From contig NZ_SDHW01000001.1 in NCBI RefSeq assembly GCF_004118265.1, positions 1,612,001 through 1,676,000 of the forward strand: a DNA stretch of 64,000 nucleotides. The letters run 5' to 3'. Below the pieces are notes generated by a model that saw only the letters and a program-made list of their open reading frames with translations, did not search any database and was not told the origin of the DNA. The translations under genes and the position numbers were made by a program. Source of the stretch: Lacibacter luteus. GTDB lineage: Bacteria > Bacteroidota > Bacteroidia > Chitinophagales > Chitinophagaceae. This document shows, in pieces, positions 30,537 to 48,261 of this stretch (its first letter is position 1; each line of letters begins with the position of its first letter).

Positions 30537-30603
30537 ATGAGATGATGTGTTGCGTTGGCTGACACTCATCATAGGAATTTACATGTGCCATAGTTTAACT
30601 TAC
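30537..30603 (+). promoter_or_regulatory. FNR/FixK-like box promoter of the DUF892 operon
   Basis: Box CTGAC-ACTC-ATCAT at 30559-30572 (TGA-N6-TCA). A left half-site ATGAG at 30537-30541 sits exactly where a second box 22 bp upstream would be. A -7-like TAACTTAC starts at 30596, 30.5 bp after the box centre. TAACTTA also serves as -7 before the YtxH gene. Confidence 0.6.
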
Positions 30604-30623
30604 GGTAGCTAAAACCATAAGTT

Positions 30624-31145
30624 ATGCTACAGGAAAATCAAACAATAAGCACACTGCATCATTTACTCGATGCTGAAGCAGGAAAATTCATAAGTGCGGA
30701 ACATCAGCTCGGTCGTGAACTGCAGCAATGGATCAACATCGCCTGTTCGGCAAAGCTGAAAACTGTATTGCAACGCTACCGGCACGATATTGAAAACCAC
30801 CTGCAACAGATGGATGAATTTATTAAACAGGAAAACCTGCAGAGTGTAAGCCTCAACAGCCGTATTATGAAAGCCTACATCGACGATACCAACGAAACAC
30901 TGTTAAACTGCAGCGATGCCGAAGTAAAAGACGCCTGCCTGCTGGCAAGCGTTCAGCTCATCAATCATTACAAAATAAGTGCCTATGGTACAGCCGCTGC
31001 TTTTGCCAATGTATTGGAAATGGAAAAAGCCGCACAGTTTTTTCATCAGGCAGAAGTAAACGAAAAACAGATCGACGACAGGTTATCGCAACTCGCTCTT
31101 TATGAAATTAACAGCAGAGCGAAAGCACCCATTACATTACCCTAA
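30624..31145 (+). CDS. DUF892 (YciE/YciF-like) ferritin-fold stress protein
   Basis: A 173-residue all-helical protein of the DUF892 family: TLHHLLDAEAGKFISAEHQL at the start, ENHLQQMDEFIKQEN in helix 2, ACLLASVQLINHYKISAYGTAAAFANVL in helix 3 and the C-terminal NEKQIDDRLSQLA. The family has a rubrerythrin/ferritin-like fold and is induced by general and osmotic stress. The acidic and His positions of a di-metal site are only partly evident (E and H of the KISAYGT region). First gene of a stress operon with a dienelactone-hydrolase-like enzyme, a phosphoribosyltransferase and Hsp20, behind an FNR-like box. Confidence 0.82.
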   Translation: MLQENQTISTLHHLLDAEAGKFISAEHQLGRELQQWINIACSAKLKTVLQRYRHDIENHLQQMDEFIKQENLQSVSLNSRIMKAYIDDTNETLLNCSDAEVKDACLLASVQLINHYKISAYGTAAAFANVLEMEKAAQFFHQAEVNEKQIDDRLSQLALYEINSRAKAPITLP

Positions 31146-31155
31146 AACAAATTAT

Positions 31156-31827
31156 ATGAATTTCAGATTTAACAACGAAGTAGCTATTCCACTTGGAGAT
31201 ATAGTATTAAAAGGCGAACTCAGCATTCCCCTTTCAGCAGAAGCGATCGTAATTTTTTCGCACACAAGCGGCAACGGCAGAAACAGTGCACGTAACAAAA
31301 TGGTAGCAACTTATCTCCATCAGCATCATATCGGAACTCTTCTTTTCGATTTGCTTACAACAGAAGAAGAGTTGCAGTATCAAACACGTTTTGATGTTGC
31401 TATGCTTACGCAACGCCTGTACGGCACCACAAGATGGCTGCAAAAACAACCAACAGCAAAAAGCTGTTCACTCGGATTTTTTGCTGCAAGTACCGGTGCT
31501 GCTTCGGCATTAAAAGCATCGTTGCGCTTACCCGAAATTGAAGCGGTGGTTTGCAGAGGTGGCCGCCCCGATCTTGCAATGCAGGATCTGCCAAAGGTGA
31601 AAGCTCCGGTGTTACTGATTGTTGGAAGTTATGATACTGATGTGCTGGCACTGAACCGTAATGCATACAATATGCTTACCTGCAGAAGACGATTGGATAT
31701 TGTTGAAAACGCAACGCACTTGTTTGAAGAAGACGGTAAAATGGAAATAGTGGAGAAACTGGCCTGTAAGTGGTTTGAACAGCATTTGCTCATGGCCGAT
31801 CATCATGTTCATAAATCTTCATTATGA
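31156..31827 (+). CDS. Alpha/beta hydrolase, dienelactone-hydrolase-like
   Basis: About 223 residues from MNFRFNNEVAIPLGD; a longer frame overlapping the DUF892 gene adds 18 residues and is rejected. Alpha/beta-hydrolase landmarks are VIFSHTSGNGRNSARN (oxyanion region), LGFFAASTGAASAL (nucleophile elbow, Ser in A-A-S-T-G rather than G-x-S-x-G), VGSYDTDVL (Asp) and ENATHLFEE (His). Overlap of 4 bp with the phosphoribosyltransferase gene (ATGA) couples the two. In several bacteria similar hydrolase and phosphoribosyltransferase domains are fused, so they likely act together. Substrate unknown. Confidence 0.8.
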   Translation: MNFRFNNEVAIPLGDIVLKGELSIPLSAEAIVIFSHTSGNGRNSARNKMVATYLHQHHIGTLLFDLLTTEEELQYQTRFDVAMLTQRLYGTTRWLQKQPTAKSCSLGFFAASTGAASALKASLRLPEIEAVVCRGGRPDLAMQDLPKVKAPVLLIVGSYDTDVLALNRNAYNMLTCRRRLDIVENATHLFEEDGKMEIVEKLACKWFEQHLLMADHHVHKSSL

Positions 31828-32477
31828 AATATGCCAACAGAAAAGATGCCGGACTAAAACTGGCATTCCAATTGCGCAAATTTACAATGGACGATTGTGT
31901 GGTTTGTGCAATACCCCATGGCGCAGTAGCCGTTGCTTTTGAAGTAGCAGCTTCTCTGAATTTTCCATTGCAACCGGTACTTACTAAAAAGATTGGTCAC
32001 CCGGTTAATAAAGAATACGCCATTGGTGCAGCCAGTTTAACCGGTTATTTTGTTTGGGCCGATGATGCTATAAGTGATGATTATGTAAAAACAGAAGTAG
32101 AACGTATACAGGCACAACTGCAGGATATGCACAACAAGTTTATTACCGGCAGAAGAACGTTTACGCTGAAAGATAAAATACTGATTATAATCGATGATGG
32201 AATTGCTACCGGTAATACCATGCTGGCTGCCATTCAGCTGTTGCGAAAGGAAGAGCCATTAAAAATTGTGGTTGCAATACCGGTAGCTTCTTCGCAAGCT
32301 TATAAGTTTCTGCAACGGGATGCTGATGAAGTTGTGTGTTTACATCTTGCAGAAAATTTTACCGGTGTTGGTTCGTTTTATGAAGACTTTTCACAGGTAA
32401 ATGATGCAGACGTCATTGCATACCTGGACGAAATGGAAAAAATTTACAAACATTCCGCACAAACCAACAGCTTATGA
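31824..32477 (+). CDS. Phosphoribosyltransferase-family protein
   Basis: A 217-residue type I phosphoribosyltransferase fold. The PRPP-binding loop is ILIIIDDGIATGNTM (about residues 114-128). The N-terminal part has CAIPHGAVAVAFEVAASL and the Lys pair LTKKIGHPVNKEYAIGA typical of the stress-linked family that includes the mycobacterial DosR-regulon member Rv0571c. There is a short C-terminal tail after ADVIAYLDEM. The substrate is unknown; nucleobase salvage is not implied. It starts in the stop of the hydrolase gene and is followed 60 bp later by Hsp20. Confidence 0.85.
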   Translation: MKYANRKDAGLKLAFQLRKFTMDDCVVCAIPHGAVAVAFEVAASLNFPLQPVLTKKIGHPVNKEYAIGAASLTGYFVWADDAISDDYVKTEVERIQAQLQDMHNKFITGRRTFTLKDKILIIIDDGIATGNTMLAAIQLLRKEEPLKIVVAIPVASSQAYKFLQRDADEVVCLHLAENFTGVGSFYEDFSQVNDADVIAYLDEMEKIYKHSAQTNSL

Positions 32478-32537
32478 ACCGATCCGTCCGTTGAAAAAGA
32501 AGACAGGTTTGCTATTGCTCATCATTAAAACAACGGT

Positions 32538-32987
32538 ATGGAAAATCATAGCACAAAAATCGATGTACATTATTGCTACCCCGGCGAATACAGATTACTT
32601 CCTGAGTTGGAAATGCTTACGAGTGAATTACAGAAGCGCAGAGAAGGAATAGTATTACAACCCCTCATTAATGTAAAAGAAAATAATGAAGCACTGGTAA
32701 TAGATGCAGCTGTACCCGGTGCCCGGCGGGAGCATTTTCTTATTGAAACAGAAAACCATGTATTATCCATTGCGTTGCTGATGCAATGCAGTGCAGATGA
32801 AGAAAAGGAAAACTGTTTTCAACTGCATGAGTTTAACTATGCCTGTTTTAACCGGCAAATTTCATTGCCCAAAAACGTTAATTCTGTGCTGGCTGTGGCA
32901 AGCTATAAAGAAGGCATGCTACATATTTATTTTCCGAAAGAAAAAGAAGCAACTTCTAAAGAAAAACAGCGCATTGTATTGTATTAA
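32538..32987 (+). CDS. Hsp20-like small heat-shock protein (divergent)
   Basis: A 149-residue alpha-crystallin-domain protein. Domain features: PLINVKENNEALVIDAAVPGA (strands 2-3), HFLIETENHVLSIAL, a middle with FNYACFNRQISLPKNV and the end GMLHIYFPKEKE. The usual C-terminal I-x-I anchor appears as IVL. It is more diverged than the Hsp20 at 38.6 kb and has several Cys. As last gene of the DUF892 operon it would act as a holdase under the same stress. The stretch after it up to the UspA gene holds only that gene's promoter. Confidence 0.75.
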   Translation: MENHSTKIDVHYCYPGEYRLLPELEMLTSELQKRREGIVLQPLINVKENNEALVIDAAVPGARREHFLIETENHVLSIALLMQCSADEEKENCFQLHEFNYACFNRQISLPKNVNSVLAVASYKEGMLHIYFPKEKEATSKEKQRIVLY

Positions 32988-33119
32988 CACGGGAAGCCGA
33001 ATAATTGTTGGTTGAAAAAATAACCCGTACCAAAGCCGTAATAACAACATACGGGCGCTGTTGAAATTGAAAGTACATAAAACAAAAACCAATGGAAACA
33101 TATTAAATAAAAATCACTA

Positions 33120-33162
33120 GTGACTGAAATCAGTCAATCCGCTGTTACGGGTCATAATCTGT
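33120..33162 (+). promoter_or_regulatory. FNR/FixK-like box upstream of the UspA gene
   Basis: GTGAC-TGAA-ATCAG at 33120-33133 fits TGA-N6-TCA; a second overlapping register CTGAA-ATCA-GTCAA is at 33124-33137, so the whole is a 16-bp palindrome. A weak -7-like TAATCTGT begins at 33155, 28.5 bp after the first box centre. No clear second box 22 bp away. Confidence 0.5.
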
Positions 33163-33204
33163 AGCGGCAAACAACCCCATCTTTATCAAACAAAATCATT
33201 CGTT

Positions 33205-34026
33205 ATGAAAAAGATTTTGCTGGCATTCGACGGCACTCATTTTTCAAACGGAGCATTTGAATTTGCCCGCTGGTTAAATGAGACAGAGCCTGTTTTAGTT
33301 ACCGGCGCCTTTCTGCCACAGGCACAGGCAGCAAATATGTGGAGTTATGCCGATGGCATGAGTGGTCCTATGTTTGTTCCGCTGGTGGAAGAAAGAGACA
33401 CGGAGGTTATGAAGGCGAATATTTCAAAATTCGAAACCCTTTGTCGAAAACACAACATCGAATACCGTGTGCACGAAGACACGTTTGATTTTGCCTTACC
33501 CGAGCTGAAAGCCGAAACCAGGTTTGCCGATGTGTTGATTATAGGCAGTGAAGTGTTTTACGAAAACCTGGGCGGTAAGCTCAACGATTATCTGCACGAT
33601 GTTTTGCACAAAGCTGAGTGCCCGGTAATTGTGGTTCCGGAAAACTATGCGTTTCCAAAAACCAATGTTCTTTGTTACGATGGCAGCGATTCAAGTGTTT
33701 ACGCCATTAAGCAGTTTGCGTACATCTTCCCCGAACTGGCGAAGCAACCAACAATGCTGGTGTACATACACAAGGATGGTACAAACAATCTTCCTCAACA
33801 GGTTAACATCGAAGAGCTCACTGCACGACACTTCAGTGATCTTACATTGATGAAACTGGATATGAGTGCTGATAAACACTTCGGCACATGGATGAACAAC
33901 CGTGAAGCAGCAATGCTGGTTGCAGGAAGTTTTGGCCGCTCTGCATTATCGGAACTTGTAAGGAAGAGCCTGGTAAAAGATGTAATTACCGAGCATAAAC
34001 TTCCGGTATTTATAGCACACAGATAA
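33205..34026 (+). CDS. Tandem universal stress protein (UspA family)
   Basis: A 273-residue protein with two Usp domains. The first begins MKKILLAFDGTHFSNGAFEFARWL and contains ADVLIIGSEVFYENLGG and AECPVIVVPE; the second begins TNVLCYDGSDSSVYAIKQFAY and ends LVAGSFGRSALSELVRKSL with HKLPVFIAHR. The ATP-binding glycine signature G-2x-G-9x-G is only partial in the first domain. Such tandem proteins are typical hypoxia/stationary-phase members. Own promoter with an FNR-like box and a strong terminator, so monocistronic. Confidence 0.9.
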   Translation: MKKILLAFDGTHFSNGAFEFARWLNETEPVLVTGAFLPQAQAANMWSYADGMSGPMFVPLVEERDTEVMKANISKFETLCRKHNIEYRVHEDTFDFALPELKAETRFADVLIIGSEVFYENLGGKLNDYLHDVLHKAECPVIVVPENYAFPKTNVLCYDGSDSSVYAIKQFAYIFPELAKQPTMLVYIHKDGTNNLPQQVNIEELTARHFSDLTLMKLDMSADKHFGTWMNNREAAMLVAGSFGRSALSELVRKSLVKDVITEHKLPVFIAHR

Positions 34027-34060
34027 CACAGATAGATAGCAATTTGGTTGGTGATTGTTC

Positions 34061-34092
34061 GGGGCCGATGTCAATCGGCCCCTCTTTTTTTT
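34061..34092 (+). terminator. Intrinsic terminator after UspA gene
   Basis: Perfect 9-bp GC-rich stem GGGGCCGAT/ATCGGCCCC with loop GTCA and the tail TCTTTTTTTT. Confidence 0.92.
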
Positions 34093-34158
34093 ATGTTTAA
34101 CGTCAGCTTGTACTGCAACCAACATCATCGGTTAAACATATCTGCAACCGTAAGTTTA
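34093..34158 (+). promoter_or_regulatory. Degenerate tandem FNR-like boxes upstream of DUF2892 gene
   Basis: ATGTT-TAAC-GTCAG (34093-34106) and GCAAC-CAAC-ATCAT (34115-34128) each keep one good half-site. Their centres are 22 bp apart and the second is 29.5 bp before the first T of TAAGTTTA (34151-34158), the same geometry as the strong sites further on. Confidence 0.4.
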
Positions 34159-34197
34159 TACTGCTTAACAAACAGCCATATAAAAACAAAATCAATC

Positions 34198-34401
34198 ATG
34201 AAAAAGAATCTTGGCAATATCGACAGAGTTATCCGCCTTGTTACAGCAGGTGTTTTGGCAATGCTTTGGTTTCAAAACGTTATAACCGGCACATGGGCTA
34301 TTGTGGCACTTGTAATTGCAGTGGTATTTGCATTAACAGGTTTTATAAGCTGGTGCCCCATTTATGCAATGCTTGGTATTAAAAGCAATGCGGTAAAATA
34401 G
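34198..34401 (+). CDS. DUF2892 small membrane protein
   Basis: A 67-residue protein from MKKNLGNIDRVIRLVTAGVL, the typical DUF2892 opening. Two membrane segments: RLVTAGVLAMLWFQNVI and AIVALVIAVVFALTGFISW, ending with CPIYAMLGI. The family is also found as the membrane tail of rhodanese YgaP. Longer reading frames start upstream of the predicted promoter and are rejected. Function unknown; it belongs to the set of genes with FNR-like geometry. Confidence 0.82.
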   Translation: MKKNLGNIDRVIRLVTAGVLAMLWFQNVITGTWAIVALVIAVVFALTGFISWCPIYAMLGIKSNAVK

Positions 34402-34472
34402 AAGCAGCTTCCATCTTAGATTATAAATTATGTGAACATTGTTTCCTGTAATTTCACAGGGTAAACAATTCT

Positions 34473-35483: not shown

Positions 35484-35578
35484 GTTTCTGGTTTATCGTT
35501 TTTTGTTGCTGATTGCCTGTTACAGGTTATGGGTTACGGGTAATGGACACTTTTCACTTTTCTTCCGTCGTCTTCTCA

Positions 35579-36760: not shown

Positions 36761-36884
36761 GCAGCCAAATTACAGATTATCTTTTTTCAAACCTTTCCGT
36801 TTTTTCTTCACTAACTATTTTATACATGAACATACTGCTGCATGTTGATGACTCCTGCATGCATTTAAATGAAATCTTTGGAAA

Positions 36885-36950
36885 TTGAGTTTTATCAAAA
36901 CGGGTAATGACAACCATCATTTGGTAATATGAATTGATAAAATATCTTTA
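36885..36950 (+). promoter_or_regulatory. Tandem FNR/FixK-like boxes and -7 element of the PNPOx-like gene
   Basis: TTGAG-TTTT-ATCAA (36885-36898) and ATGAC-AACC-ATCAT (36907-36920); centres exactly 22 bp apart. The -7 element TATCTTTA (36943-36950) starts 29.5 bp after the second centre. Predicted transcription starts near 36956, so the usable start codon is ATG 36973. Confidence 0.75.
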
Positions 36951-36972
36951 TCCATCCGTTAATGATTTTGCC

Positions 36973-37422
36973 ATGCTGGGTATACTATCTAAAGGAGAGA
37001 TCGAGGAGCTGCTGTATGGCAGCAACCTCGGTCGTATTGGTTGCAGTTACAATGGAAAAACCTACGTAGTGCCTGTAAACTATATTTACGATGGCCGTTG
37101 TGTACTTGCACATTCTGTTGAAGGCATGAAAATTCAGATCATGCGCAAAAATCCTTCTGTTTGTTTTGAAGTAGACGAGATCAGCAACAACAAAAACTGG
37201 AAGAGTGTAATTGCACAAGGTACCTATACAGAACTTACCGGCGAGCGTGAACGGTACGATGCCATGAAACTGTTTGTAGACCGGATGCTGAAACTAAAGA
37301 TCAGCAGCACGACACACCCGCCCGAACCGGAACCCGAACGTTTACACAACAGCAGTTCGGCTAAACCGGTTATCTACCGCATTCTTCTTACCGAAAAAAC
37401 GGGGCGTTACGAAAAAGAATAG
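36973..37422 (+). CDS. Pyridoxamine 5'-phosphate oxidase-family (FMN-binding split-barrel) protein
   Basis: About 149 residues from MLGILSKGEIEELL; an in-frame TTG upstream lies before the predicted transcript start. The split-barrel is seen as LGRIGCSYNGKTYVVPVNYIYD, AHSVEGMKIQIMRKNPSVCFEVDEI and WKSVIAQGTYTELTGERERYDAM. This subfamily (nitroimidazole-resistance/Rv3129-like) binds FMN, F420 or haem and is common in hypoxia regulons. Specific substrate unknown. It is preceded by one of the clearest tandem box promoters in the window. Confidence 0.85.
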   Translation: MLGILSKGEIEELLYGSNLGRIGCSYNGKTYVVPVNYIYDGRCVLAHSVEGMKIQIMRKNPSVCFEVDEISNNKNWKSVIAQGTYTELTGERERYDAMKLFVDRMLKLKISSTTHPPEPEPERLHNSSSAKPVIYRILLTEKTGRYEKE

Positions 37423-37441
37423 TTCAACTTCATTAGCCTGC

Positions 37442-37485
37442 ATGATGCTCATCATTGTAAACGGCTTTTGTAAAGAGTAACTTAG
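37442..37485 (+). promoter_or_regulatory. FNR/FixK-like box promoter of the YtxH operon
   Basis: Perfect palindrome ATGAT-GCTC-ATCAT (37442-37455) with TAACTTAG (37478-37485) beginning 29.5 bp after its centre. A right half-site TTCAT at 37429-37433 is where the 22-bp-upstream box would end. Confidence 0.7.
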
Positions 37486-37523
37486 AACCGATATAACAGT
37501 TTATTCACCTGTAAATATTTTTT

Positions 37524-37748: not shown

Positions 37749-37760
37749 CCCAAACTGTTG

Positions 37761-38406: not shown

Positions 38407-38431
38407 TGCTTACTGGCCCTGCAATCGCAAG

Positions 38432-38462: not shown

Positions 38463-38515
38463 TATGAGCTGTTTGTAGCAATTGTTAAAAGCATTTCTTT
38501 CAACATCGCTTTTCT

Positions 38516-38582
38516 CTGATGTGAATCACAGCCTTCATTGATGTTCATTCTTGAAAAAAACCTTACTGCAACCGTATCTTCA
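38516..38582 (+). promoter_or_regulatory. Tandem FNR/FixK-like sites and -7 element of hsp20
   Basis: CTGAT-GTGA-ATCAC (38516-38529) plus TTGAT-GTTC-ATTCT (38538-38551), whose left half is consensus; centres 22 bp apart. -7-like TATCTTCA (38575-38582) starts 30.5 bp after the second centre. Confidence 0.6.
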
Positions 38583-39135: not shown

Positions 39136-39139
39136 GTTT

Positions 39140-39204
39140 ATGAGCATCATCAGTTTATTTTCTGATAATGGTCAGAAAGCAGCAAACAGACCGGTTCTAA
39201 TTTG
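39140..39204 (+). promoter_or_regulatory. Tandem FNR/FixK-like boxes and -7 element of ccoI
   Basis: ATGAG-CATC-ATCAG (39140-39153) and CTGAT-AATG-GTCAG (39162-39175), centres exactly 22 bp apart. TAATTTG (39198-39204) begins 29.5 bp after the second centre. The start codon is only 9 bp past it, so the leader would be nearly absent. Confidence 0.72.
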
Positions 39205-39213
39205 CAGCCTGTT

Positions 39214-41616
39214 ATGAGTACGAGTGTAAAATCAACCATTCAATGTTATCACTGTGGAGAGGAATGTGTTACTGAAACCATTCAACTGGCCGATAAAACC
39301 TTCTGCTGCCAGGGTTGTAAAACCGTTTACCAGGTGTTGAACCAGAGTGATCTGTGCAATTACTACGAGCTCAACAAAAATCCCGGCACTACACAACGCA
39401 TTACTGTTCGCAAAGACAAATTCTCTTTTCTCGACGATGAAAAAATTCAGCAACAGCTGGTCTCGTTCCGTAACAGCGAACAAACCCATGTAACGTTTTA
39501 CCTGCCGCAGATCCATTGCAGCTCCTGTTTATGGCTGCTGGAAAATCTGCATCGGCTGAACAGCGATGTTGTATCATCAAGAGTAAACTTTACACGTAAA
39601 GAAGTAGCGATCATCTTCAACCATAACCGCAGTTCGTTACGCACCGTTGCCGAATTGTTGACAAGTATCGGTTACGAACCGTACATCAGCTTACAAAATC
39701 TGCAACAGGCAAAGCCACGCATTCAACGCAGTTTAATTTACCAGTTAGGTGTGGCCGGTTTTTGTTTTGCCAACATTATGCTCATGAGCTTTCCCGAATA
39801 TCTCGGACTGGAGGAAGCAGAAAAAAGCATGCAATATCTTTTCCGTTATTTCAATCTTATACTATCACTCCCTGTACTGTTATACAGTTCGCTGCCGTTT
39901 TACCAAAGTGCATGGGGCAGTTTAAAACATAAGTATCTCAATATTGATGCACCAATCGCTCTGGCCATCATCATGACCTTTGGCCGCAGCCTCTACGAAG
40001 TACTCAGCAATACAGGCAGCGGTTATTTCGATTCCATGAGTGGTATTGTGTTTTTTATGCTGGTGGGCCGTGTACTGCAGGAAAAAACCTATCAACAATT
40101 ATCGTTCGAACGTGATTATACATCTTACTTCCCTATTGCAGTAACAGTAATCAAAGACAAAAAAGAAATTCCTACTGCATTACCCGATATTAAAGTGGGC
40201 GACACCATTCTCATCCACAACGAAGAATTAATTCCGGTTGATGGTTTATTGACCAAAGGCAAAGCATTGATCGATTATAGTTTTGTTACCGGCGAATCAT
40301 TACCTGTATTGAAGGAAATGGGTGAACTGTTGTATGCCGGCGGCAAACAAACCGGCAGCAATATTGAATTACTGGTAATGAAAGAAGTGGCACAGAGTTA
40401 TTTAACACGCCTCTGGAACAACGATGATAAACAGAAAGCTGCCAAGGTTTCTTTTGTTGATTCATTAAGCCGCTACTTTACCTGGATCGTTTTTGCGTTG
40501 GCAGCAGCTGGTGCTTTGTACTGGAGTTTTTATGATGGCGGCAAAGCATGGAATGTGGTAACTACTATTCTGATTGTTGCCTGCCCCTGTGCTTTATTGC
40601 TCAGCAACAGTTTTACCAATGGCAATGTATTGCGCATACTCGGCAACAACAAACTGTATTTGCGTAATGCACAAACTATTGAAGAAATTGCCGAAGTCAA
40701 TCATATTGTATTCGATAAAACAGGCACACTTACAACAACCGAAGCACAGGATATATTTTTTTCAGGCGAACCATTTACCGATGAAATTGCAGGCTGCATT
40801 GCTGCACTGGCAGCACAAAGCACACACCCGTTGAGTAAACTGCTGGCGAAAGAATTTAAACAAGATGGAGCGTTTACAGTAAAACAGTTTCGTGAATCAA
40901 CAGGCAAAGGTATCAGTGGTATTGTTAACCAACGTATCATCAGTTTAGGATCGGCAGAGTTTATAACCGGTTATGCCTCGCAGAAATTTGAAGGCAGCAC
41001 CGTATATGTTTCTGTTGATGGTTCGTTGCCGGGCTACTTCAGCATACGCAATCATTACCGTACACATATCTTCGAACAGATAAAACAATTACGGAAGCAA
41101 TACCGCATTTCCATTTTGAGTGGCGATAATGAAAGTGAACGTTTGAATTTACAGAGAGAGTTGGGCATGGATGTAAAATTGTTTTTCAATCAACAGCCGC
41201 ACGACAAACTCTGCTACATTCAACAATTACAACAAGGCGGACAAAAAGTAATGATGATCGGCGATGGTTTGAACGATGCAGGTGCATTGAAACAAGCAGA
41301 TGCAGGTATTGCAGTAACCGAAAGCACCAACAACTTTACACCTGCCAGCGATGGTATACTGGAAGCCAATCAGCTCAACCGCCTTTCAGCTTATCTACAA
41401 TTTACAAAAGCAAACAAACGTGTGGTGCTTGCAAGCTTTGTGCTTTCCATTCTCTACAACATCATTGGTTTAAGCTTTGCACTTAAAGGCGTTTTATCGC
41501 CCATGATTGCTGCTATATTGATGCCATCCAGTTCGCTCAGCATTATTCTGCTCACATTCGGCGCATCATCGTTGTATGCACGTTTGCTAGGCTTACGGAA
41601 GAAACAGCAATTGTGA
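39214..41616 (+). CDS. ccoI: CcoI/FixI-type copper-translocating P-type ATPase
   Basis: About 800 residues from MSTSVKSTIQCYHCGEE; an in-frame TTG four codons earlier falls inside the -7 element. N-terminal Cys-rich metal-binding domain (CYHCGEEC, CCQGCKTVY), then an HMA domain with CSSCLW. Eight membrane spans; metal-binding C457-P-C459 in VACPCALLLS; actuator TGES; phosphorylated Asp501 in DKTGTLT; and GDGLNDAGAL in the hinge. It exports copper for insertion into the cbb3 oxidase. It lies upstream of ccoS and the oxidase, in the usual cluster, with its own box-bearing promoter. Confidence 0.93.
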   Translation: MSTSVKSTIQCYHCGEECVTETIQLADKTFCCQGCKTVYQVLNQSDLCNYYELNKNPGTTQRITVRKDKFSFLDDEKIQQQLVSFRNSEQTHVTFYLPQIHCSSCLWLLENLHRLNSDVVSSRVNFTRKEVAIIFNHNRSSLRTVAELLTSIGYEPYISLQNLQQAKPRIQRSLIYQLGVAGFCFANIMLMSFPEYLGLEEAEKSMQYLFRYFNLILSLPVLLYSSLPFYQSAWGSLKHKYLNIDAPIALAIIMTFGRSLYEVLSNTGSGYFDSMSGIVFFMLVGRVLQEKTYQQLSFERDYTSYFPIAVTVIKDKKEIPTALPDIKVGDTILIHNEELIPVDGLLTKGKALIDYSFVTGESLPVLKEMGELLYAGGKQTGSNIELLVMKEVAQSYLTRLWNNDDKQKAAKVSFVDSLSRYFTWIVFALAAAGALYWSFYDGGKAWNVVTTILIVACPCALLLSNSFTNGNVLRILGNNKLYLRNAQTIEEIAEVNHIVFDKTGTLTTTEAQDIFFSGEPFTDEIAGCIAALAAQSTHPLSKLLAKEFKQDGAFTVKQFRESTGKGISGIVNQRIISLGSAEFITGYASQKFEGSTVYVSVDGSLPGYFSIRNHYRTHIFEQIKQLRKQYRISILSGDNESERLNLQRELGMDVKLFFNQQPHDKLCYIQQLQQGGQKVMMIGDGLNDAGALKQADAGIAVTESTNNFTPASDGILEANQLNRLSAYLQFTKANKRVVLASFVLSILYNIIGLSFALKGVLSPMIAAILMPSSSLSIILLTFGASSLYARLLGLRKKQQL

Positions 41617-41752
41617 ACAAAGAACAAGTGGAGAGTAATAAGTAACCAGTAGTATAAGACAGCATCTTTCAGACTTCCCGTCTTTCTGTTTTCCGGACTT
41701 CTCAACTTTGGCCTTTCGATTTTCAAAAAAACCTGACCATGATCACCGGAGT

Positions 41753-41818
41753 TTGACAAGAGTCAAGTTTTTGTCTGATTTGCGTCATCTGCCAGCACAA
41801 CCCCTCCCGATAGTTTTA
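41753..41818 (+). promoter_or_regulatory. Tandem FNR/FixK-like boxes and -7 element of the cbb3 oxidase operon
   Basis: TTGAC-AAGA-GTCAA (41753-41766), a perfect palindrome close to the classic anaerobox, and CTGAT-TTGC-GTCAT (41775-41788); centres exactly 22 bp apart. TAGTTTTA (41811-41818) starts 29.5 bp after the second centre and 30 bp before the ccoS ATG. Confidence 0.8.
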
Positions 41819-41840
41819 CAGCCGAAATAATCCAACAATT

Positions 41841-42029
41841 ATGAGTGTCATCTTCCTTTTGCTTATCGCAAGTGTATCAGTTGCGGCCCTTTTCCTGGGA
41901 GCATTTTTGTGGAGTGTGAAAAGTGGTCAGTACGACGATGAAACCTCACCTCCTATCCGTATGCTGTTCGATCAGAAGCCGGCATCTTCTTCCGGCAATT
42001 CAAGCGAAACCAATTCAACCCAACAATAA
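41841..42029 (+). CDS. ccoS: cbb3 oxidase assembly protein CcoS
   Basis: A 62-residue protein with one N-terminal membrane span (VIFLLLIASVSVAALFLGAFLW) and the CcoS signature AFLWSVKSGQYDDETSPPIRMLF. The Ser/Asn-rich tail is poorly conserved. CcoS is needed for cofactor insertion into cbb3 oxidase. It leads the ccoSNOQPGH operon. Confidence 0.95.
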   Translation: MSVIFLLLIASVSVAALFLGAFLWSVKSGQYDDETSPPIRMLFDQKPASSSGNSSETNSTQQ

Positions 42030-42052
42030 TAACAACAGAACAAACTGAAATT

Positions 42053-44185
42053 ATGCAAACCGAAAAGTTTTATTACGACAACAAGATTGTAAAATACTTT
42101 GCCAATGCCACAGCGCTTTGGGGAGTAGTAGGTATGATCGCAGGTTTGTGGGTTGCCATCCAGTTTTATTTTCCGGCTGCATCGCTCGATTATGCCGGCA
42201 CAACGTTTGGCCGCCTTCGTCCCATTCATACCAACGCCGTCATCTTTGCCTTTGTAGGTAACTGTATGTTTACCGGTGTGTATTATTCGTTGCAACGTCT
42301 TTGTAAAGCAAGAATGTTCAGCGATACCTTAAGCTGGATTCATTTCTGGGGCTGGCAATTTATTATTGTAGCTGCCGCAGCTACGCTGTTCTTCGGTTTT
42401 ACAACAGGTAAAGAATACGCAGAACTGGAATGGCCTATCGACATTATGATTACACTCATCTGGGTTGTATTTGGTGTAAACATGTTTGGCACTATTTTCA
42501 AAAGAAGAGAAAGTCATTTATATGTAGCCATCTGGTTCTATATCGCAACATGGATTACTGTTGCCATGCTGCACATTGTAAACTCCTTCGAAATGCCGGT
42601 ATCGCTGTTTAAGAGTTACAGCTGGTATGCAGGTGTGCAGGATGCGTTGGTACAATGGTGGTACGGCCATAATGCGGTTGCATTCTTTTTAACTACGCCT
42701 ATTCTCGGTTTAATGTATTACTTCCTGCCAAAAGCAGCGAACCGTCCTGTTTATTCGTATCGTTTATCCATCATCCACTTCTGGGCCCTCATTTTTATTT
42801 ACATCTGGGCAGGCCCACACCATTTATTATATACCGCCCTGCCCGATTGGGCACAATCGCTCGGTGTTGTGTTTAGCGTAATGCTGATTGCACCAAGCTG
42901 GGGCGGTATGTTAAATGGTTTGTTTACGCTCCGTGGCGCATGGGATAAAGTGCGTGAAGAACCGGTGTTGAAATTCTTTGTGGTTGCTGTTACCTGTTAT
43001 GGTATGAGTACGTTCGAAGGACCGATGCTGAGTTTGAAAAGTGTAAATGCTATTGCTCACTTTACCGATTGGATCATCGGGCACGTGCATATTGGTGGTT
43101 TAGGCTGGAATGGTTTTATGGCGTTTGGTATGCTCTATTGGTTAGTACCAAAAATGTGGGGCACTACTCTGTACTCAAAGAAACTTGCAACAAACCATTT
43201 CTGGTTAGGTACAATCGGTATTGTTATTTATGCTATTCCATTATACTGGGCAGGTTTTGCACAGGCAGAAATGTGGAAGACATTTACGGAATCCGGTCAA
43301 TTGAAATTCCAGTTCTTAGAAACTGTTACCAACATCATTCCCATGTACATTACACGTAGTGTTGGTGGCACATTGTATCTCATTGGTGCAATAATGATGG
43401 TGTACAACTTATACAAAACAGCAAAGAAAGGTTCGTTTATTGCAAACGAAGAAGCAGAAGCAGCACCGTTGGCAAAACATGCATCGCATGGTAAAGAATA
43501 CTGGCATCGGTGGATCGAAAAAAGACCTGCAACATTATTAGTGTTCAGTTTAATTGTTGTGGCTATTGGTGGTATTCTTGAAATTGTTCCCACCTTCCTC
43601 GTTAAATCGAATGTACCAACCATTACAAGTGTAAAACCATACACTGCACTGGAATTACAGGGTCGTGATATTTATATCCGTGAAGGTTGTTATACCTGTC
43701 ACTCACAAATGATCCGTCCGTTCCGTGATGAAGTTGCACGTTATGGCGAATATTCAAAAGCAGGTGAGTTTGTGTACGATCATCCCTTCCAGTGGGGCAG
43801 TAAACGTACAGGTCCGGATCTTGCACGCCTCGGTGGTAAATACCCCGACAGCTGGCATTACAACCACATGCTCGATCCACGCAGTATGTCGCCGGGTTCT
43901 ATTATGCCCAACTATCCCTGGTTGTTAGATAACGATCTGGATACTGCTTCTACCCCGGCTAAAATAAGAGCCATGCAAACACTGGGTGTTCCTTACGCTG
44001 AAGGATATGATGCGAAAGCAAACAAAGATCTGATGACGCAGGCCAATGGCATCCGCATCAGTTTAAAGATGGATAAAATTGAAACGCCTGCTAACAAAGA
44101 AATTGTGGCGCTCATCGCTTACCTGCAGCGTTTAGGTAAGGATATTAAAGCAGAAAAGAAAACTGAAACTGCTGCCGCTAATTAA
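42053..44185 (+). CDS. ccoNO: Fused cbb3-type cytochrome c oxidase subunits I and II (CcoNO)
   Basis: A 710-residue fusion typical of Bacteroidota. Residues 1-480 are CcoN: twelve-span haem-copper oxidase catalytic subunit with GRLRPIHTNAVIFAFVGN, WWYGHNAVAFFLTTP, WAGPHHLLYTALPDW and GHVHIGGLGWNGFMAFGM, which supply the His ligands of haem b, b3 and CuB. Residues ~500-700 are CcoO: a membrane anchor (LLVFSLIVVAIGGILEIV) and one haem c site REGCYTCHSQMIRPF with the axial Met in MSPGSIMPNYPW. It reduces O2 with high affinity and pumps protons. Confidence 0.97.
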   Translation: MQTEKFYYDNKIVKYFANATALWGVVGMIAGLWVAIQFYFPAASLDYAGTTFGRLRPIHTNAVIFAFVGNCMFTGVYYSLQRLCKARMFSDTLSWIHFWGWQFIIVAAAATLFFGFTTGKEYAELEWPIDIMITLIWVVFGVNMFGTIFKRRESHLYVAIWFYIATWITVAMLHIVNSFEMPVSLFKSYSWYAGVQDALVQWWYGHNAVAFFLTTPILGLMYYFLPKAANRPVYSYRLSIIHFWALIFIYIWAGPHHLLYTALPDWAQSLGVVFSVMLIAPSWGGMLNGLFTLRGAWDKVREEPVLKFFVVAVTCYGMSTFEGPMLSLKSVNAIAHFTDWIIGHVHIGGLGWNGFMAFGMLYWLVPKMWGTTLYSKKLATNHFWLGTIGIVIYAIPLYWAGFAQAEMWKTFTESGQLKFQFLETVTNIIPMYITRSVGGTLYLIGAIMMVYNLYKTAKKGSFIANEEAEAAPLAKHASHGKEYWHRWIEKRPATLLVFSLIVVAIGGILEIVPTFLVKSNVPTITSVKPYTALELQGRDIYIREGCYTCHSQMIRPFRDEVARYGEYSKAGEFVYDHPFQWGSKRTGPDLARLGGKYPDSWHYNHMLDPRSMSPGSIMPNYPWLLDNDLDTASTPAKIRAMQTLGVPYAEGYDAKANKDLMTQANGIRISLKMDKIETPANKEIVALIAYLQRLGKDIKAEKKTETAAAN

Positions 44186-44230
44186 TAACCCGAAGCGGAA
44201 CCGGGGTTCCGCTTCTTTAAAATATCTGCA

Positions 44231-44389
44231 ATGAAATTTATTCACTATCTCGAAAAGATCAGCAACGTAAGCATCTATGGTCTCAGTTCGTTTCTCATCT
44301 TCTTCATCTTTTTCTGCGCTGTATTTATTTATGTAATCCGTGCACGCAAGAGCGATATGAATGAGCAAAGCCGCATTCCATTGGATTAA
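44231..44389 (+). CDS. ccoQ: CcoQ-like small cbb3 subunit
   Basis: A 52-residue protein read directly from the sequence between ccoNO and ccoP. It starts MKFIHYLEKISNVSIYG, has one membrane span (LSSFLIFFIFFCAVFIYVI) and ends in a short charged tail (RARKSDMNEQSRIPLD). Size, single span and position match CcoQ, which stabilises the oxidase core. It lies 45 bp after ccoNO and 19 bp before ccoP. Confidence 0.85.
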   Translation: MKFIHYLEKISNVSIYGLSSFLIFFIFFCAVFIYVIRARKSDMNEQSRIPLD

Positions 44390-44408
44390 ACTCTTAAAAC
44401 ATCGAATC

Positions 44409-45590
44409 ATGTTCACATACAAACTTCATTTTATTAAACCATTCTTACGCAAACTGTTTGTTGCAGCTCCGTTGTTGCTACTGGGCAGTGTTGCTGCTGC
44501 ACAACAAACAGGCAGTGCACCTGCGCCATCAATATGGGATAATGCACTGGCATTAACCATGCTCCTCATCAGCCTGGTGTTATTGCTGGTTATTGCATTG
44601 CTCGCCAATGTGGTGCTTGGTACAGCTAAACTTCATTTCGATAAACAAAAGAAGAGCGGTACTGCTGCAAAAATTGTTTCCATTCTTTTATTGTTCTTAG
44701 CGCCATCGATACTGCATGCACAGAATGCAGCGGCTGAAGCAGTAGCACCTGCAGGACCATCATCAATTGGCGGATTAACACCGCTTACCTTTTGGGTATT
44801 GGCAGGGGTAATTGCAGTTGAGTTACTTGTAATTATTGTAATGGGCCTGTTTGTACAACGTTTCCTTGCAAAAGAAAAAATTGCAGTTGCTGCAGAAGAA
44901 GGTATTGCTGTGAAAACAAAACCATCGGGCTTTAAAGTTTGGTGGGATAAACTCAACAGCTTTAAACCAATGGAACAGGAAGCCAATATTGTACTTGATC
45001 ACAATTACGATGGCATCCGTGAACTCGACAACCGCCTTCCACCCTGGTGGCTCTATGGTTTTTATGTAACCATTATTATCGGTGGAATTTATTTGTGGCG
45101 TTACCATGTTTCTGAAACTGCTCCTTTAAGCAAACAGGAGTTTGAAATTGCCATGAAGAAGGCTGATGAAGAGAAGGCTGCTTATCTCGCAAAGGCTGCA
45201 AACAATGTAGATGAGAATACAGTAACGCTTATGAAAGAAGTAACTGCATTGGATGCAGGTAAAGCAGCGTTTGTTCAAATGTGTGCAGCATGCCATGGCA
45301 AAGCCGGAGAAGGAAGTGTTGGTCCTAACCTTACTGATGATTACTGGTTACATGGTGGCAGTATTAATGATGTTTTCAAAACCATTAAATATGGCTGGCC
45401 CGAAAAAGGCATGAAAGCGTGGCAGGATGATTTTTCGCCGGTACAGATTGCACAGATAGCCAGCTACATCAAATCGCTGAACGGCACAAACCCTCCAAAC
45501 GGAAAAGAAAAGCAAGGCGATTTGTATAAAGAAAATGGAGCAGCACCTGCAACAGACAGCACTGCAAAAAAAGAAGTAGTGATCAAGTGA
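44409..45590 (+). CDS. ccoP: cbb3 oxidase c-type cytochrome subunit III (CcoP)
   Basis: About 393 residues from MFTYKLHFIKPFL; an in-frame ATG inside ccoQ is rejected. It has extra N-terminal membrane segments (LALTMLLISLVLLLVIALLANVV; ILLLFLAPSILHAQ; VLAGVIAVELLVIIVMGLFV), then the CcoP_N motif LPPWWLYGFYVTIIIGGIYLW. Only one haem c site is present (CAACHGKAGEGSVGPNL), with WPEKGMKAW nearby for the axial Met. Proteobacterial CcoP usually has two haems; the single-haem, extended form is normal for Bacteroidota. It delivers electrons to CcoO. Confidence 0.95.
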   Translation: MFTYKLHFIKPFLRKLFVAAPLLLLGSVAAAQQTGSAPAPSIWDNALALTMLLISLVLLLVIALLANVVLGTAKLHFDKQKKSGTAAKIVSILLLFLAPSILHAQNAAAEAVAPAGPSSIGGLTPLTFWVLAGVIAVELLVIIVMGLFVQRFLAKEKIAVAAEEGIAVKTKPSGFKVWWDKLNSFKPMEQEANIVLDHNYDGIRELDNRLPPWWLYGFYVTIIIGGIYLWRYHVSETAPLSKQEFEIAMKKADEEKAAYLAKAANNVDENTVTLMKEVTALDAGKAAFVQMCAACHGKAGEGSVGPNLTDDYWLHGGSINDVFKTIKYGWPEKGMKAWQDDFSPVQIAQIASYIKSLNGTNPPNGKEKQGDLYKENGAAPATDSTAKKEVVIK

Positions 45591-45608
45591 TGATGAATAT
45601 CTAAAGCA

Positions 45609-47027
45609 ATGAATTTCGAAGAAAACATAGAACAGGTACAAAAACAGGATTCTTTCCGTGACAGGATTGCAACGGTTGATGCGCAGGGAAAACGTAAGTG
45701 GGTATTTGCGCAAAAACCAAAGGGTAAGTTTTACAATATCCGCACTTATGTAAGCTTTATCTTCTTCCTCATTTTTGTGGCACTTCCGTTTATACATGTA
45801 AACGGAAGACCCCTGTTTATGTTTAACATACCGCAGGCTAAATTTATCATTTTCGGCAAAGTATTCTGGCCGCAGGATTTTTTCATCTTCGGTATTATTA
45901 TGATCACATTCGTTGTGTTCATTGTATTGTTTACTTCAGCTTTTGGCCGTTTATTTTGCGGATGGGTTTGTCCGCAAACCATTTTTATGGAAATGCTGTT
46001 TCGCAAACTGGAGTATGTAATTGAAGGCGACGCAGCAAAGCAAAAACTGTTGGCTGCAGCACCCTGGAGCAGCGAAAAAATTGCACGCAAAGCAACCAAG
46101 CATATTGTGTTTTACCTGCTGGCATTCATAATTGCCAACATTTTCCTTGCCTATATTATTGGTGCAAAAGACCTGTGGGCTATGATGCAGCACCCGGCAC
46201 AGAATGTTGGCACCATTGCATCGCTCATGGTTTTTTCTGCTGTATTCTATGCGGTGTATGCATTCTTTCGTGAACAGGCTTGCACAGTTGTTTGTCCGTA
46301 TGGCCGTTTGCAAGGTGTACTGCTCGATAAAAATTCTATGGTAGTTGCGTACGATTACAAACGTGGAGAAGAACGTAAAAAGTTTAATAAGAAAGAAGAA
46401 CGCACTGCAGGCGATTGTATCGATTGCCATCAGTGTGTAAAGGTTTGCCCTACAGGTATCGATATCCGTAACGGTACACAAATGGAATGTGTGGGTTGCA
46501 CAGCCTGCATCGATGCATGCGATCATATGATGGAAAGTGTAGGCTTTAAAAAAGGGTTGATCCGTTATGCAAGCGAAAACGGTATTGCCAATCACGAAAA
46601 ACTGCACTACACCCGCCGTATGAAAATGTACACCGGGTTATTAATTGTATTAACAGGTTTGCTTACAACACTCTTGCTTTCGCAGAAAGAAATAAAAGCA
46701 ACTGTAATGCGTACACCGGGGCTGCTCTACCAGGAAAAAGGGCAAGACAGTATTTCGAACCTGTACAATATTAAGATCGTTAACAAAACCATGAACGATA
46801 TTCCGTTAACCGTTAAACTCGAAGGCGAAAACGGAACGGTACAGCAAGTGGGCAATGCTATCCATGTAAAAAAAGAAGGACAAGGTGCCGGATCGTTCTT
46901 CATCATTCTTCCTAAACAGGTCATCAAACAACGCAAAACAGTTTTGCATATAAGCCTGTACGAAGGCGATAAAAAAATCACCACCGTGAAAACAAATTTT
47001 CTCGGCCCTATTTCATCAACCAATTAA
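45609..47027 (+). CDS. ccoG: CcoG/RdxA-type polyferredoxin
   Basis: A 472-residue membrane iron-sulfur protein. Membrane spans include YVSFIFFLIFVALPFI and IIMITFVVFIVLFTSAFG. Cys motifs are CGWVCPQTIFME, ACTVVCPYGRLQ, and two 4Fe-4S ferredoxin motifs CIDCHQCVKVCP and CVGCTACIDACD. The C-terminal Ig-like domain (IVNKTMNDIPLTVKLEGE) is normal for the family. CcoG reduces copper for the CcoN CuB site. It lies 18 bp after ccoP. Confidence 0.95.
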   Translation: MNFEENIEQVQKQDSFRDRIATVDAQGKRKWVFAQKPKGKFYNIRTYVSFIFFLIFVALPFIHVNGRPLFMFNIPQAKFIIFGKVFWPQDFFIFGIIMITFVVFIVLFTSAFGRLFCGWVCPQTIFMEMLFRKLEYVIEGDAAKQKLLAAAPWSSEKIARKATKHIVFYLLAFIIANIFLAYIIGAKDLWAMMQHPAQNVGTIASLMVFSAVFYAVYAFFREQACTVVCPYGRLQGVLLDKNSMVVAYDYKRGEERKKFNKKEERTAGDCIDCHQCVKVCPTGIDIRNGTQMECVGCTACIDACDHMMESVGFKKGLIRYASENGIANHEKLHYTRRMKMYTGLLIVLTGLLTTLLLSQKEIKATVMRTPGLLYQEKGQDSISNLYNIKIVNKTMNDIPLTVKLEGENGTVQQVGNAIHVKKEGQGAGSFFIILPKQVIKQRKTVLHISLYEGDKKITTVKTNFLGPISSTN

Positions 47028-47038
47028 AACAATGCACA

Positions 47039-47482
47039 ATGACACTTAACTGGGGACATAAAGTAACACTTGGCTTTAGTGCTTTTGTAATCTTCATGTT
47101 TTTTATGGTGTACAAAAGCATGCATACCGATTTTCAACTGGTATCGAAAGAATATTACAAAGATGAACTTGCTTACCAGCAGGTAATTGATGGCACAAAG
47201 CGTGCAAATGAATTAAGCACAACAGTAAGTGTTGCACAAAGCAACGAGACCGTTACCATTCAACTGCCGGAAGAATTGAAAGGAAAAAAGATCAGCGGAA
47301 ATATTTGGCTTTACTGCCCTACCGATGACAAGAAAGATCAACGCTTAACATTAACAGCTGATGCTGATGCACGTTTACAACTGGAACGGAAAACAATTGC
47401 TGCAGGCAACTATGTACTTAAAATTAACTGGACAGCAGATGGTACTGCATTTTACAACGAACAACCACTTACAGTAAAATGA
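47039..47482 (+). CDS. ccoH: FixH/CcoH-family cbb3 assembly protein
   Basis: A 147-residue protein. One N-terminal span (VTLGFSAFVIFMFFMVYKSM) with the family motif NWGHKVTLGF and the conserved LVSKEYYKDELAYQQVIDGTKRA, then a beta-rich periplasmic domain (VTIQLPEELKG, GNYVLKINWTADG). It supports assembly of the oxidase with CcoI. Its stop overlaps the start of the next gene (ATGATG), so both are coupled. Confidence 0.9.
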   Translation: MTLNWGHKVTLGFSAFVIFMFFMVYKSMHTDFQLVSKEYYKDELAYQQVIDGTKRANELSTTVSVAQSNETVTIQLPEELKGKKISGNIWLYCPTDDKKDQRLTLTADADARLQLERKTIAAGNYVLKINWTADGTAFYNEQPLTVK

Positions 47483-48186
47483 TGTTGCAGGCAATAACCG
47501 GAGGATTGGTGCTCGGTGCATTCAGCAGTTTGCATTGCGTTGGCATGTGCGGGCCGCTTGCACTTGCATTGCCTGTACAACATTTACCTGTTTGGCAACA
47601 ACGCCTGGCTGCGTTTATGCACAGCTTGGGACGCATTGCTACATATGCGTTGTTTGGTTTGCTGTTTGGTTTTGCAGGCCGCAGTTTGCAACTGGCCGGC
47701 TTTCAGCAATGGTTATCCATCATCAGCGGTGCTGTTATTTTATTTTTCCTTGTTAACTACTACCTCTTACACAAAAGCTGGCAACCTGCTATTACAGTAA
47801 AACTCAACCAGGCTGTACAGCAATTAATGATCCGTTTGCTGAATAAGAAAACAACCAAAACCTATTTTCTTTTTGGTATGGTAAACGGCTTATTGCCATG
47901 TGGCATGGTGTATGTAGCACTTGCAGCAGCACTCAACTTTCGTGAAGTGGAAAACAGCATAGCTTTTATGAGCAGCTTCGGAGCAGGCACTGCACCGTTA
48001 CTATTGCTGCTTACTGTACTGGGTCACAGCATATCGTTTTCACTTCGCACTAAAATAAGAAAAGCCGTTCCGTATATCATGACAGTTATGGCAGTACTGT
48101 TGATTTTGCGTGGTTTAAATCTCGGCATTCCGTTTATAAGCCCTGTATTGGCCGGCTCAACTGCCGATCCGGTACAATGCCATTAA
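47479..48186 (+). CDS. SafE/TauE-like (UreH/HupE-type) membrane protein of the cbb3 cluster
   Basis: A 235-residue protein with six membrane spans. The first bears LVLGAFSSLHCVGMCGPLALALP; the fourth carries FGMVNGLLPCGMVYVALAAAL. The paired Cys motifs HCVGMCGP and LPCG resemble the DsbD/CcdA-like and copper-handling members of this family that follow fixH in many cbb3 operons. A role in copper delivery or redox during oxidase maturation is likely but not shown. It overlaps ccoH by 4 bp and ends the operon. Confidence 0.82.
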   Translation: MMLQAITGGLVLGAFSSLHCVGMCGPLALALPVQHLPVWQQRLAAFMHSLGRIATYALFGLLFGFAGRSLQLAGFQQWLSIISGAVILFFLVNYYLLHKSWQPAITVKLNQAVQQLMIRLLNKKTTKTYFLFGMVNGLLPCGMVYVALAAALNFREVENSIAFMSSFGAGTAPLLLLLTVLGHSISFSLRTKIRKAVPYIMTVMAVLLILRGLNLGIPFISPVLAGSTADPVQCH

Positions 48187-48195
48187 AAGCCACAA

Positions 48196-48261
48196 GTGAT
48201 GAGGATCATTAACGCTATTGACAACTGTTATAGAGAACCGCTTCGGCAAAATGTAGATTTG
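48196..48261 (+). promoter_or_regulatory. Tandem FNR/FixK-like boxes with a perfect -7 element
   Basis: GTGAT-GAGG-ATCAT (48196-48209) and TTGAC-AACT-GTTAT (48218-48231, one mismatch in the right half), centres exactly 22 bp apart. TAGATTTG (48254-48261) matches TAnnTTTG and begins 29.5 bp after the second centre. It drives the coiled-coil gene that follows. Confidence 0.72.

Follow-up and report, generated by a model that had tools for sequence, protein, structure and literature searches.

A paired, probably CRP/FNR-type operator with fixed spacing upstream of cbb3 oxidase genes in Lacibacter luteus and other Chitinophagaceae

Genes and promoters of the window

The stretch analyzed here, a window of 64,000 nucleotides from Lacibacter luteus (contig NZ_SDHW01000001.1, positions 1,612,001 to 1,676,000), carries genes for a cbb3 oxidase and its maturation, a Crp-type regulator fused to a receiver domain (REC-CRP), and a set of promoters with paired palindromes of the form TGAN6TCA. 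A gene for a CcoI-like P-type ATPase (39214..41616, + strand; recognized by Pfam and named CcoI from its gene context) precedes ccoS, a fused ccoNO, a ccoQ-like gene, ccoP, ccoG, ccoH and a DsbD_2 gene (41841..48186, + strand; assigned by Pfam, the ccoQ-like gene below the Pfam cut-off). In this cluster ccoN and ccoO form a single open reading frame (ORF) at 42053-44185, with COX1 and FixO domains in 710 amino acids. REC-CRP, a receiver joined to a Crp-type cNMP/HTH protein, is encoded at 48837..49892 (- strand) and is our proposed activator on the basis of its Pfam domains and its co-occurrence with the operator. The gene of a PAS-HisKA-HATPase histidine kinase lies 14 bp upstream of it (49907..51133, - strand); from Pfam and an alignment with FixL and DosP, we propose it as a heme sensor.

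An initial annotation had placed TGAN6TCA boxes at nine promoters, and scoring all nine confirmed both the positions and the spacings. All nine lie on the + strand. Three tandems are exact (TGAN6TCA-N10-TGAN6TCA), with their first letters at 36886, 39141 and 41754. They precede the pyridoxamine oxidase-like (PNPox) gene (promoter 36886..36950; boxes 36886-36897 and 36908-36919; -7 element TATCTTTA at 36943-36950), ccoI (39141..39205; boxes 39141-39152 and 39163-39174; -7-like element TAATTTGC at 39198-39205) and the ccoS-ccoNO-ccoQP-ccoGH genes (41754..41818; boxes 41754-41765 and 41776-41787; -7 element TAGTTTTA at 41811-41818). An extra exact box is found 20 bp upstream of the ccoS tandem (41734..41745, + strand). 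Tandems with one mismatch start at 48197 and 33121. The former belongs to the promoter of an ORF at 48269-48694 (48197..48261; boxes 48197-48208 with 6/6 key bases and 48219-48230 with 5/6; -7 element TAGATTTG at 48254-48261), and the latter to that of UspA (33121..33185; boxes 33121-33132, 6/6, and 33143-33154, 5/6; weak -7 element CATCTTTA at 33178-33185). Before uspA, two TGAN6TCA palindromes overlap at a 4-bp offset in 33121-33136 (TGACTGAAATCAGTCA).

The remaining four promoters also matched their earlier description as partly degenerate tandems or single boxes with a half-site. Partly degenerate pairs precede HSP20 (38517..38582; boxes 38517-38528, 6/6, and 38539-38550, 4/6; -7 element TATCTTCA at 38575-38582) and a YgaP-like transmembrane protein (34094..34158; boxes 34094-34105, 5/6, and 34116-34127, 4/6; -7 element TAAGTTTA at 34151-34158). 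The DUF892 gene has one exact box (30560-30571) with a half-site of 3/6 at 30538-30549 and the -7-like element TAACTTAC at 30596-30603 (promoter 30538..30603). The YtxH-like gene has a 6/6 box at 37443-37454, a degenerate distal box of 4/6 at 37421-37432, and the -7 element TAACTTAG at 37478-37485 (promoter 37421..37485).

The distance from the proximal box center to the first T of the -7-like element was 29.5 bp at the YgaP, PNPox, YtxH, CcoI, CcoS and 48269 ORF promoters and 30.5 bp at DUF892 and HSP20, in agreement with the six and two promoters originally listed at these distances. At the CcoI promoter, an octamer at 28.5 bp ties with the one at 29.5 bp (both 4/6). The 28.5 bp given for UspA did not hold, the best octamer there being at 29.5 bp and weak (4/6).

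Spacing, anatomy and conservation of the operator

Taken alone, the window showed a modest excess of tandems. With two or fewer mismatches allowed, nine places were found against 3.5 in shuffled sequence, and 2 of 100 shuffles reached nine. The whole Lacibacter genome (5.07 Mb) holds four exact 22-bp tandems, all in one 51-kb stretch, namely the three of the window and one 8.8 kb before it. Spacings derived from the listed pair lengths gave 16 exact pairs with gaps of 2-32 in this genome; 22 bp accounts for four of these and no other spacing for more than two. The same preference appeared in 30 family genomes taken irrespective of gene content, where 38 of the 75 pairs listed (of 114) were at 22 bp and every other spacing had at most four. 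In eighty REC-CRP loci, which are mutually related and were picked by the presence of REC-CRP, the exact pairs were 22 bp apart in 65 cases and 21 bp apart in seven. Between 12 and 60, none of the remaining spacings exceeded six pairs, and Markov-resampled copies gave an expectation of 0-0.5 pairs per spacing. A tandem at 21 or 22 bp was present in 52 of these loci. The distance from a single box to TAnnTTTG peaked sharply at 29.5 bp (27 cases) and 51.5 bp (37 cases), positions 22 bp apart, and TAnnTTTG followed the proximal center by 29.5 bp in 13 of 130 strand-oriented pairs.

We then defined a strict composite as two exact boxes 22 bp apart with TAnnTTTG at the correct distance. It occurred in 179 of 294 family genomes, while five decoy spacings together gave 6/294, and the idea that the spaced motif is commoner than chance was thus borne out at genome scale. 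A reversed-pattern control (0/294) was probably too lenient, as reversing the words leaves their trinucleotide frequencies unmatched; we relied on the decoy spacings instead. The strict composite scores zero in the window's own genome, so its absence from a genome is weak evidence. Across the phylum it was found in 30 of 395 genomes: 9/14 in the family, 4/5 in the rest of the order, 14/79 in the rest of the class and 3/297 elsewhere. Two of the last three belong to one genus, with six and nine copies. The sites are therefore real and extend well beyond the window. As a list of regulon members, the one-mismatch tandems of the whole Lacibacter genome were dropped unless a -7 element or promoter position supported them; their number, 20 places, is near the analytic background of roughly 18.

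The anatomy of the operator was examined in 51 aligned sites, for which position -12 was assumed to be the first T of the -7 element. The sites were chosen for an exact -7 element and one exact box, and hence only the partner box is informative. The consensus of both boxes was TGAY-N4-RTCA, the 3' half of the proximal box (RTCAT) was the strongest part, and a mild A-rich stretch lay at -75 to -72, upstream of the distal box. When the distal box was exact, the partner 22 bp away retained at least four of six key bases in 35 of 37 sites; with an exact proximal box this held for 16 of 27, and the remainder included 21-bp pairs. The base immediately 5' of TGA in the proximal box showed no preference in the 51 sites, while the FNR half-site is TTGAT. 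The original label of FNR/FixK-like boxes thus fits at the level of the CRP/FNR superfamily, but the base before TGA is unlike FNR.

A third box at 22 bp, with at least five of six key bases, accompanied 10 of 65 tandems, and other spacings gave three or fewer. It is genuine at some promoters and not a general feature. One such promoter, 8.8 kb before the window, belongs to a YceI-domain gene; here three boxes follow each other at 22-bp steps, the third with one mismatch (G000:C11:1603182-1603237; L001 1501-1556). Besides this gene, the site precedes another ORF that has no Pfam match. In a further genome (G016; contigs C10, C27 and C152), three pairs of boxes 36-37 bp apart resemble each other in their flanking letters and are possibly another arrangement or a repeat.

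At most of the promoters the boxes were also kept upstream of orthologues, a condition that the initial annotation had set for its reading. Conservation was scored as the number of key bases, out of 12, in a tandem at 22 bp in five Lacibacter congeners. The upstream regions of CcoI, CcoS and the PNPox-like gene had 12/12 in all five, and those of the 48269 ORF and HSP20 had 10-11/12 in all five. The proximal box of HSP20 lacked the final A in every congener and shared a TTC end in four; this defective end is itself conserved. Scores were 10-12/12 for YtxH in the four congeners with a match, with a full tandem in one, and 10-11/12 for UspA in the two congeners with an orthologue, the other three having no match. 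Conservation was weaker at YgaP (10/12 in three congeners and 9/12 in two, with a varying distance to the start), since 9/12 was also reached by control genes. No match to DUF892 was found in the congener stretches examined.

The control genes YdjM, Cls, CcoP, CcoG, CcoH and DsbD_2 reached at most 9/12 in the congeners, and for CcoNO one of five upstream regions scored 10, at 21 bp. The YdjM-like and cardiolipin synthase (Cls) genes had been described as having no boxes. This agrees with the absence of an exact box from the gap before the YdjM-like gene of the window and with the scores of both genes in the congeners (7-9/12). For Cls, however, the statement needs qualification, because the tandem at 36886 is only 126 bp from its divergent start (36760) and was assigned to PNPox alone solely by its -7 element. 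Beyond the genus, we counted upstream regions in the REC-CRP loci, excluding loci L126-L140, which were selected because they hold the motif. At least 11/12 key bases were present before CcoI in 15 of 25 and before CcoS in 16 of 23, with two or fewer at decoy spacings. The same threshold was reached before the operon-internal genes CcoG, CcoH and DsbD_2 in 0/24, 0/23 and 0/23, before CcoP in 0/6 and before CcoNO in 2/22.

In the window the operator would serve the cbb3 oxidase set, the CcoI-like, UspA, HSP20, PNPox-like, YgaP-like, YtxH-like and DUF892 genes, and the 48269-48694 ORF. This ORF has no Pfam match; relatives of it occur in the REC-CRP loci, where 15 upstream regions were counted. 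In 30 family loci with the composite, which include the near-copies L016/L018 and L023/L024, the 32 downstream ORFs encoded Rrf2 (5), cytochromes c, COX1 (2), PNPox-like proteins (2) and Usp, together with an E1-E2 ATPase (CcoI-like), a PAS kinase, a Crp protein, an aspartase/fumarase-type lyase and a BON-domain protein. Judged by these domains, the gene set would fit a micro-oxic regulon.

Regulators associated with the operator

The REC-CRP protein contains a cNMP_binding fold (E 4.7e-23) and an HTH_Crp domain (E 1.3e-14) by Pfam. Its receiver is complete (111/111 positions of Response_reg) and has the motifs DIMMP, LTAK and TKPF, which we take to hold the phospho-acceptor Asp, the Thr and the Lys. 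The recognition helix reads GTATESLIR, in which TESLIR aligns with RETVGR of E. coli CRP; its Glu and Arg are presumably the conserved CRP/FNR recognition residues. The CRP part has no cysteine, and the single cysteine of the protein is in the receiver, a content that does not provide the ligands of a [4Fe-4S] FNR. In the alignment, the GEL and ERS stretches of CRP, which we assume to make the cAMP contacts, were not conserved in REC-CRP.

Of 75 loci with sufficient sequence upstream of REC-CRP, 73 have a kinase immediately before it. FixL (1.9e-15) and DosP were among the best solved relatives of the PAS domain of the Lacibacter kinase, and His66 aligned with the His of FixL (1d06) and of DosP, which we take to be heme ligands. 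This His was kept in 58 of the 73 partner kinases. The PAS domain probably carries heme.

The presence of the composite was compared with that of two regulators in the 294 family genomes, REC-CRP being called at E <= 1e-60 and an FNR-like protein with four cysteines (Cys4) at E <= 1e-45. The FNR-like proteins of the family have, as judged from their sequences, an N-terminal C-x2-C...C...C motif and an FNR-type fold. The composite was present in 29 of 35 genomes with both regulators (13/15 with one genome per genus), in 123 of 176 with REC-CRP only (41/58), in 20 of 41 with the FNR-like protein only (6/12) and in 7 of 42 with neither (2/16). The two regulators tended to avoid each other (35/176/41/42; Fisher p 4e-8, or p 0.04 with one genome per genus). 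Genomes with REC-CRP and neither the FNR-like protein nor a third, L169-type Crp protein had the composite in 82 of 117 cases, compared with 4 of 37 genomes that lack all three. Among genomic features REC-CRP predicts the operator best, and no FNR-like match at the above threshold was obtained in any of the six Lacibacter genomes.

The link between operator and REC-CRP that had been suggested for the window was upheld by this association, but it is not exclusive, because the operator also occurs in genomes with an FNR-like protein in which no REC-CRP was found. Two of these, G031 and G125 (L126 and L129), have a tandem directly before ccoS and a second one before the ORF immediately preceding ccoI; this ORF has roughly 170 codons in both genomes. 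In G555, from another class, a tandem lies 62 bp before a ccoI match with a Cys4 gene nearby (L132). G555 and G588, of one genus, contain six and nine composites, the most outside the family among the phylum genomes. Each has a Cys4 FNR-like gene, beside the cbb3 cluster in G555, and neither gave a REC-CRP match at E <= 1e-25.

The recognition helices of the two regulators are similar. The pattern GTATE[ST]xIR was found in 21 of 21 Cys4 rows (19 genes) and in 49 of 84 REC-CRP rows; some genes occur twice among all these rows, two Cys4 genes each sitting in two loci. In a quick tree of Crp domains (82 of 124 rows, midpoint root), REC-CRP formed one group with a support of 81, beside a group holding the Cys4 proteins and other Crp proteins. 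Relatives seem to keep the operator while carrying different sensing proteins.

Proposed mechanism, alternatives and known systems

To our knowledge, activation mechanisms in Bacteroidota have been little studied; the sigma factor and promoter elements of the phylum differ from those of E. coli. We consider it likely that the pairs are operators of a CRP/FNR-type activator of a micro-oxic regulon, that REC-CRP and a heme-PAS kinase fill this role in Lacibacter, and that the sensor has been exchanged between lineages. A first dimer would bind the TGAY-N4-RTCA box centered about 29.5 bp upstream of the -7 element, measured to its first T. With that T taken as -12, the box would be near -41.5, the class II position, and the dimer would be in contact with RNA polymerase next to the promoter. 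Another dimer would bind 22 bp upstream on the same helix face, near -63.5, presumably cooperatively, where it could touch the first dimer or the alpha subunit. The protein at these sites in Lacibacter would most likely be REC-CRP, phosphorylated by the adjacent PAS kinase, which probably bears heme and would report falling oxygen. The predicted regulon, which probably helps these bacteria of soil and water to respire at low oxygen, would comprise the cbb3 oxidase with its maturation and copper genes, and genes for stress or maintenance functions (Usp, HSP20, PNPox-like). In other lineages, a similar operator may be driven by an FNR-like protein with the N-terminal four-cysteine motif. We give about even odds to a more specific version, in which two dimers at the fixed 22 bp, sometimes with a third, are needed to activate the polymerase at TAnnTTTG, and in which the operator is conserved while the sensor is exchanged between a Cys4 FNR-like protein and a heme-PAS kinase with REC-CRP.

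Several observations weigh against REC-CRP and its kinase as the regulators of these promoters. Seven genomes have the composite and neither regulator; six of these are 60-92% complete and one is 98% complete. Conversely, 59 of 211 REC-CRP genomes have no strict composite, a figure weakened by the failure of this pattern to detect the window's own genome, which means that true sites escape it. The recognition helix departs from GTATE[ST]xIR in 35 of 84 REC-CRP rows. A tandem was found before the REC-CRP gene in only 2 of 87 upstream regions, and before its kinase in 13 of 67. With regard to heme, the distal Arg of FixL, whose role there we assume, aligns with Leu in the kinase PAS domain, and no His is seen in 15 of the 73 partner kinases (8 E, 1 N, 4 gap, 2 not aligned). 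The Lacibacter genome also holds other Crp paralogues, among them L169 (G000:C27:161913-161946), which has the helix GLRVETVIR and a one-mismatch tandem with TAACTTGC just before its start.

Such a paralogue, L169 or L168, might itself bind the tandems, with REC-CRP merely a neighbor of the cbb3 genes. The L169 helix is, as we read it, FNR-like, the tandem before its gene comes with a -7-like element, and two other genomes have confirmed L169-type genes downstream of tandems (L036 and L128). However, a position downstream of tandems suits a target better than an activator and suggests a regulatory cascade. The co-occurrence test gave little support to an L169-type binder, which adds little beyond REC-CRP and the FNR-like protein, and 82 of 117 genomes with REC-CRP alone have the composite. 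We therefore regard this explanation as quite unlikely. It is unlikely, too, that each of the two boxes has a Crp-type reader of its own, such as REC-CRP at the proximal box and a paralogue at the distal one, so that two signals are integrated. Either box can degenerate independently, genomes have several Crp paralogues, and both main regulators occur together in 35 of 294 genomes, 29 of which have the composite; against this stand the single consensus common to both boxes and the presence of the operator in genomes with just one of the two main regulators.

The pairs might instead be repressor or dual sites, at which a distal dimer down-tunes a proximal class II activator. At class II promoters, the C-terminal domain of the alpha subunit usually binds upstream of the activator, and this is where the distal dimer would sit; upstream FNR is also known to down-tune class II activation at some E. 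coli promoters. The proximal center would be located where E. coli FNR activates according to PMC3688515, and the mild A-rich stretch upstream of the distal box would leave room for alpha. Both points favor activation, although they are compatible with down-tuning, which we judge distinctly improbable. Finally, an origin of the pairs by chance, or as a coding or composition effect of TGA and TCA words, could draw on the modest excess in the window alone (9 against 3.5 in shuffles at two or fewer mismatches) and on the background-like appearance of most one-mismatch tandems elsewhere in the genome. The decoy spacings, which use the same words, and the negative-control genes speak against it, and we regard its probability as negligible.

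As paired sites of an activator, the boxes resemble several known systems in part. With the class II FNR and CRP promoters of E. coli they would share CRP/FNR-type recognition and a palindrome near -41.5, a position predicted here from the -7 element. PMC3688515 describes sites at -41.5 +/- 4 in 19 of 23 FNR-activated promoters with a known start, one activated promoter with a site at -60.5, and direct-regulon peaks that are mostly single-site (89%). Here, in contrast, promoters across the regulon have a second box 22 bp upstream. Two dimers per promoter, as proposed here, are also bound at the tandem CRP sites of E. coli (class III). Those spacings are usually wider and vary between promoters, whereas the spacing here is constant at 22 (or 21) bp. 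Regulons of [4Fe-4S] FNR are paralleled by the four N-terminal cysteines of the FNR-like proteins of the family, which may act at tandems of cbb3 genes; they differ from Lacibacter, which gave no FNR-like match and whose REC-CRP has a CRP part without cysteine.

By analogy, the nearest functional parallel is the rhizobial FixL-FixJ-FixK system, in which, as we propose here for a kinase with predicted heme, a heme-PAS kinase stands above a CRP/FNR-type activator of cbb3 genes. The output domain of FixJ is of LuxR type, while that of REC-CRP is HTH_Crp_2. In the accessible part of PMC4999443, FixJ is a separate response regulator that turns on fixK, and fixed operator pairs are not described for the system; here the receiver and the CRP-type protein form one polypeptide, and the boxes of the operator come as a fixed pair. 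The tandem architecture had been thought to be undescribed in Bacteroidota. In keeping with this, no account of a paired operator or of receiver-CRP fusions with cbb3 genes in the phylum appeared among the papers listed by full-text searches of the open-access literature. In the main text of a study of the CRP/FNR meta-regulon (PMC8510549), a word search gave no occurrence of Bacteroidet-, Chitinophag-, tandem, receiver or palindrom-.

The operator offers a testable case of regulator exchange, in which two sensing chemistries, presumed iron-sulfur on one side and presumed heme with phosphorylation on the other, would serve one promoter design. Because it can be recognized by sequence alone, it could also provide a map of probable low-oxygen genes across the family. 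At one further place, L012 (G000:C21:283327-283360), a one-mismatch tandem is followed by a perfect TAGCTTTG at exactly 29.5 bp. It precedes genes for a glycine cleavage H-like protein and a methyltransferase and is divergent from another Crp gene.

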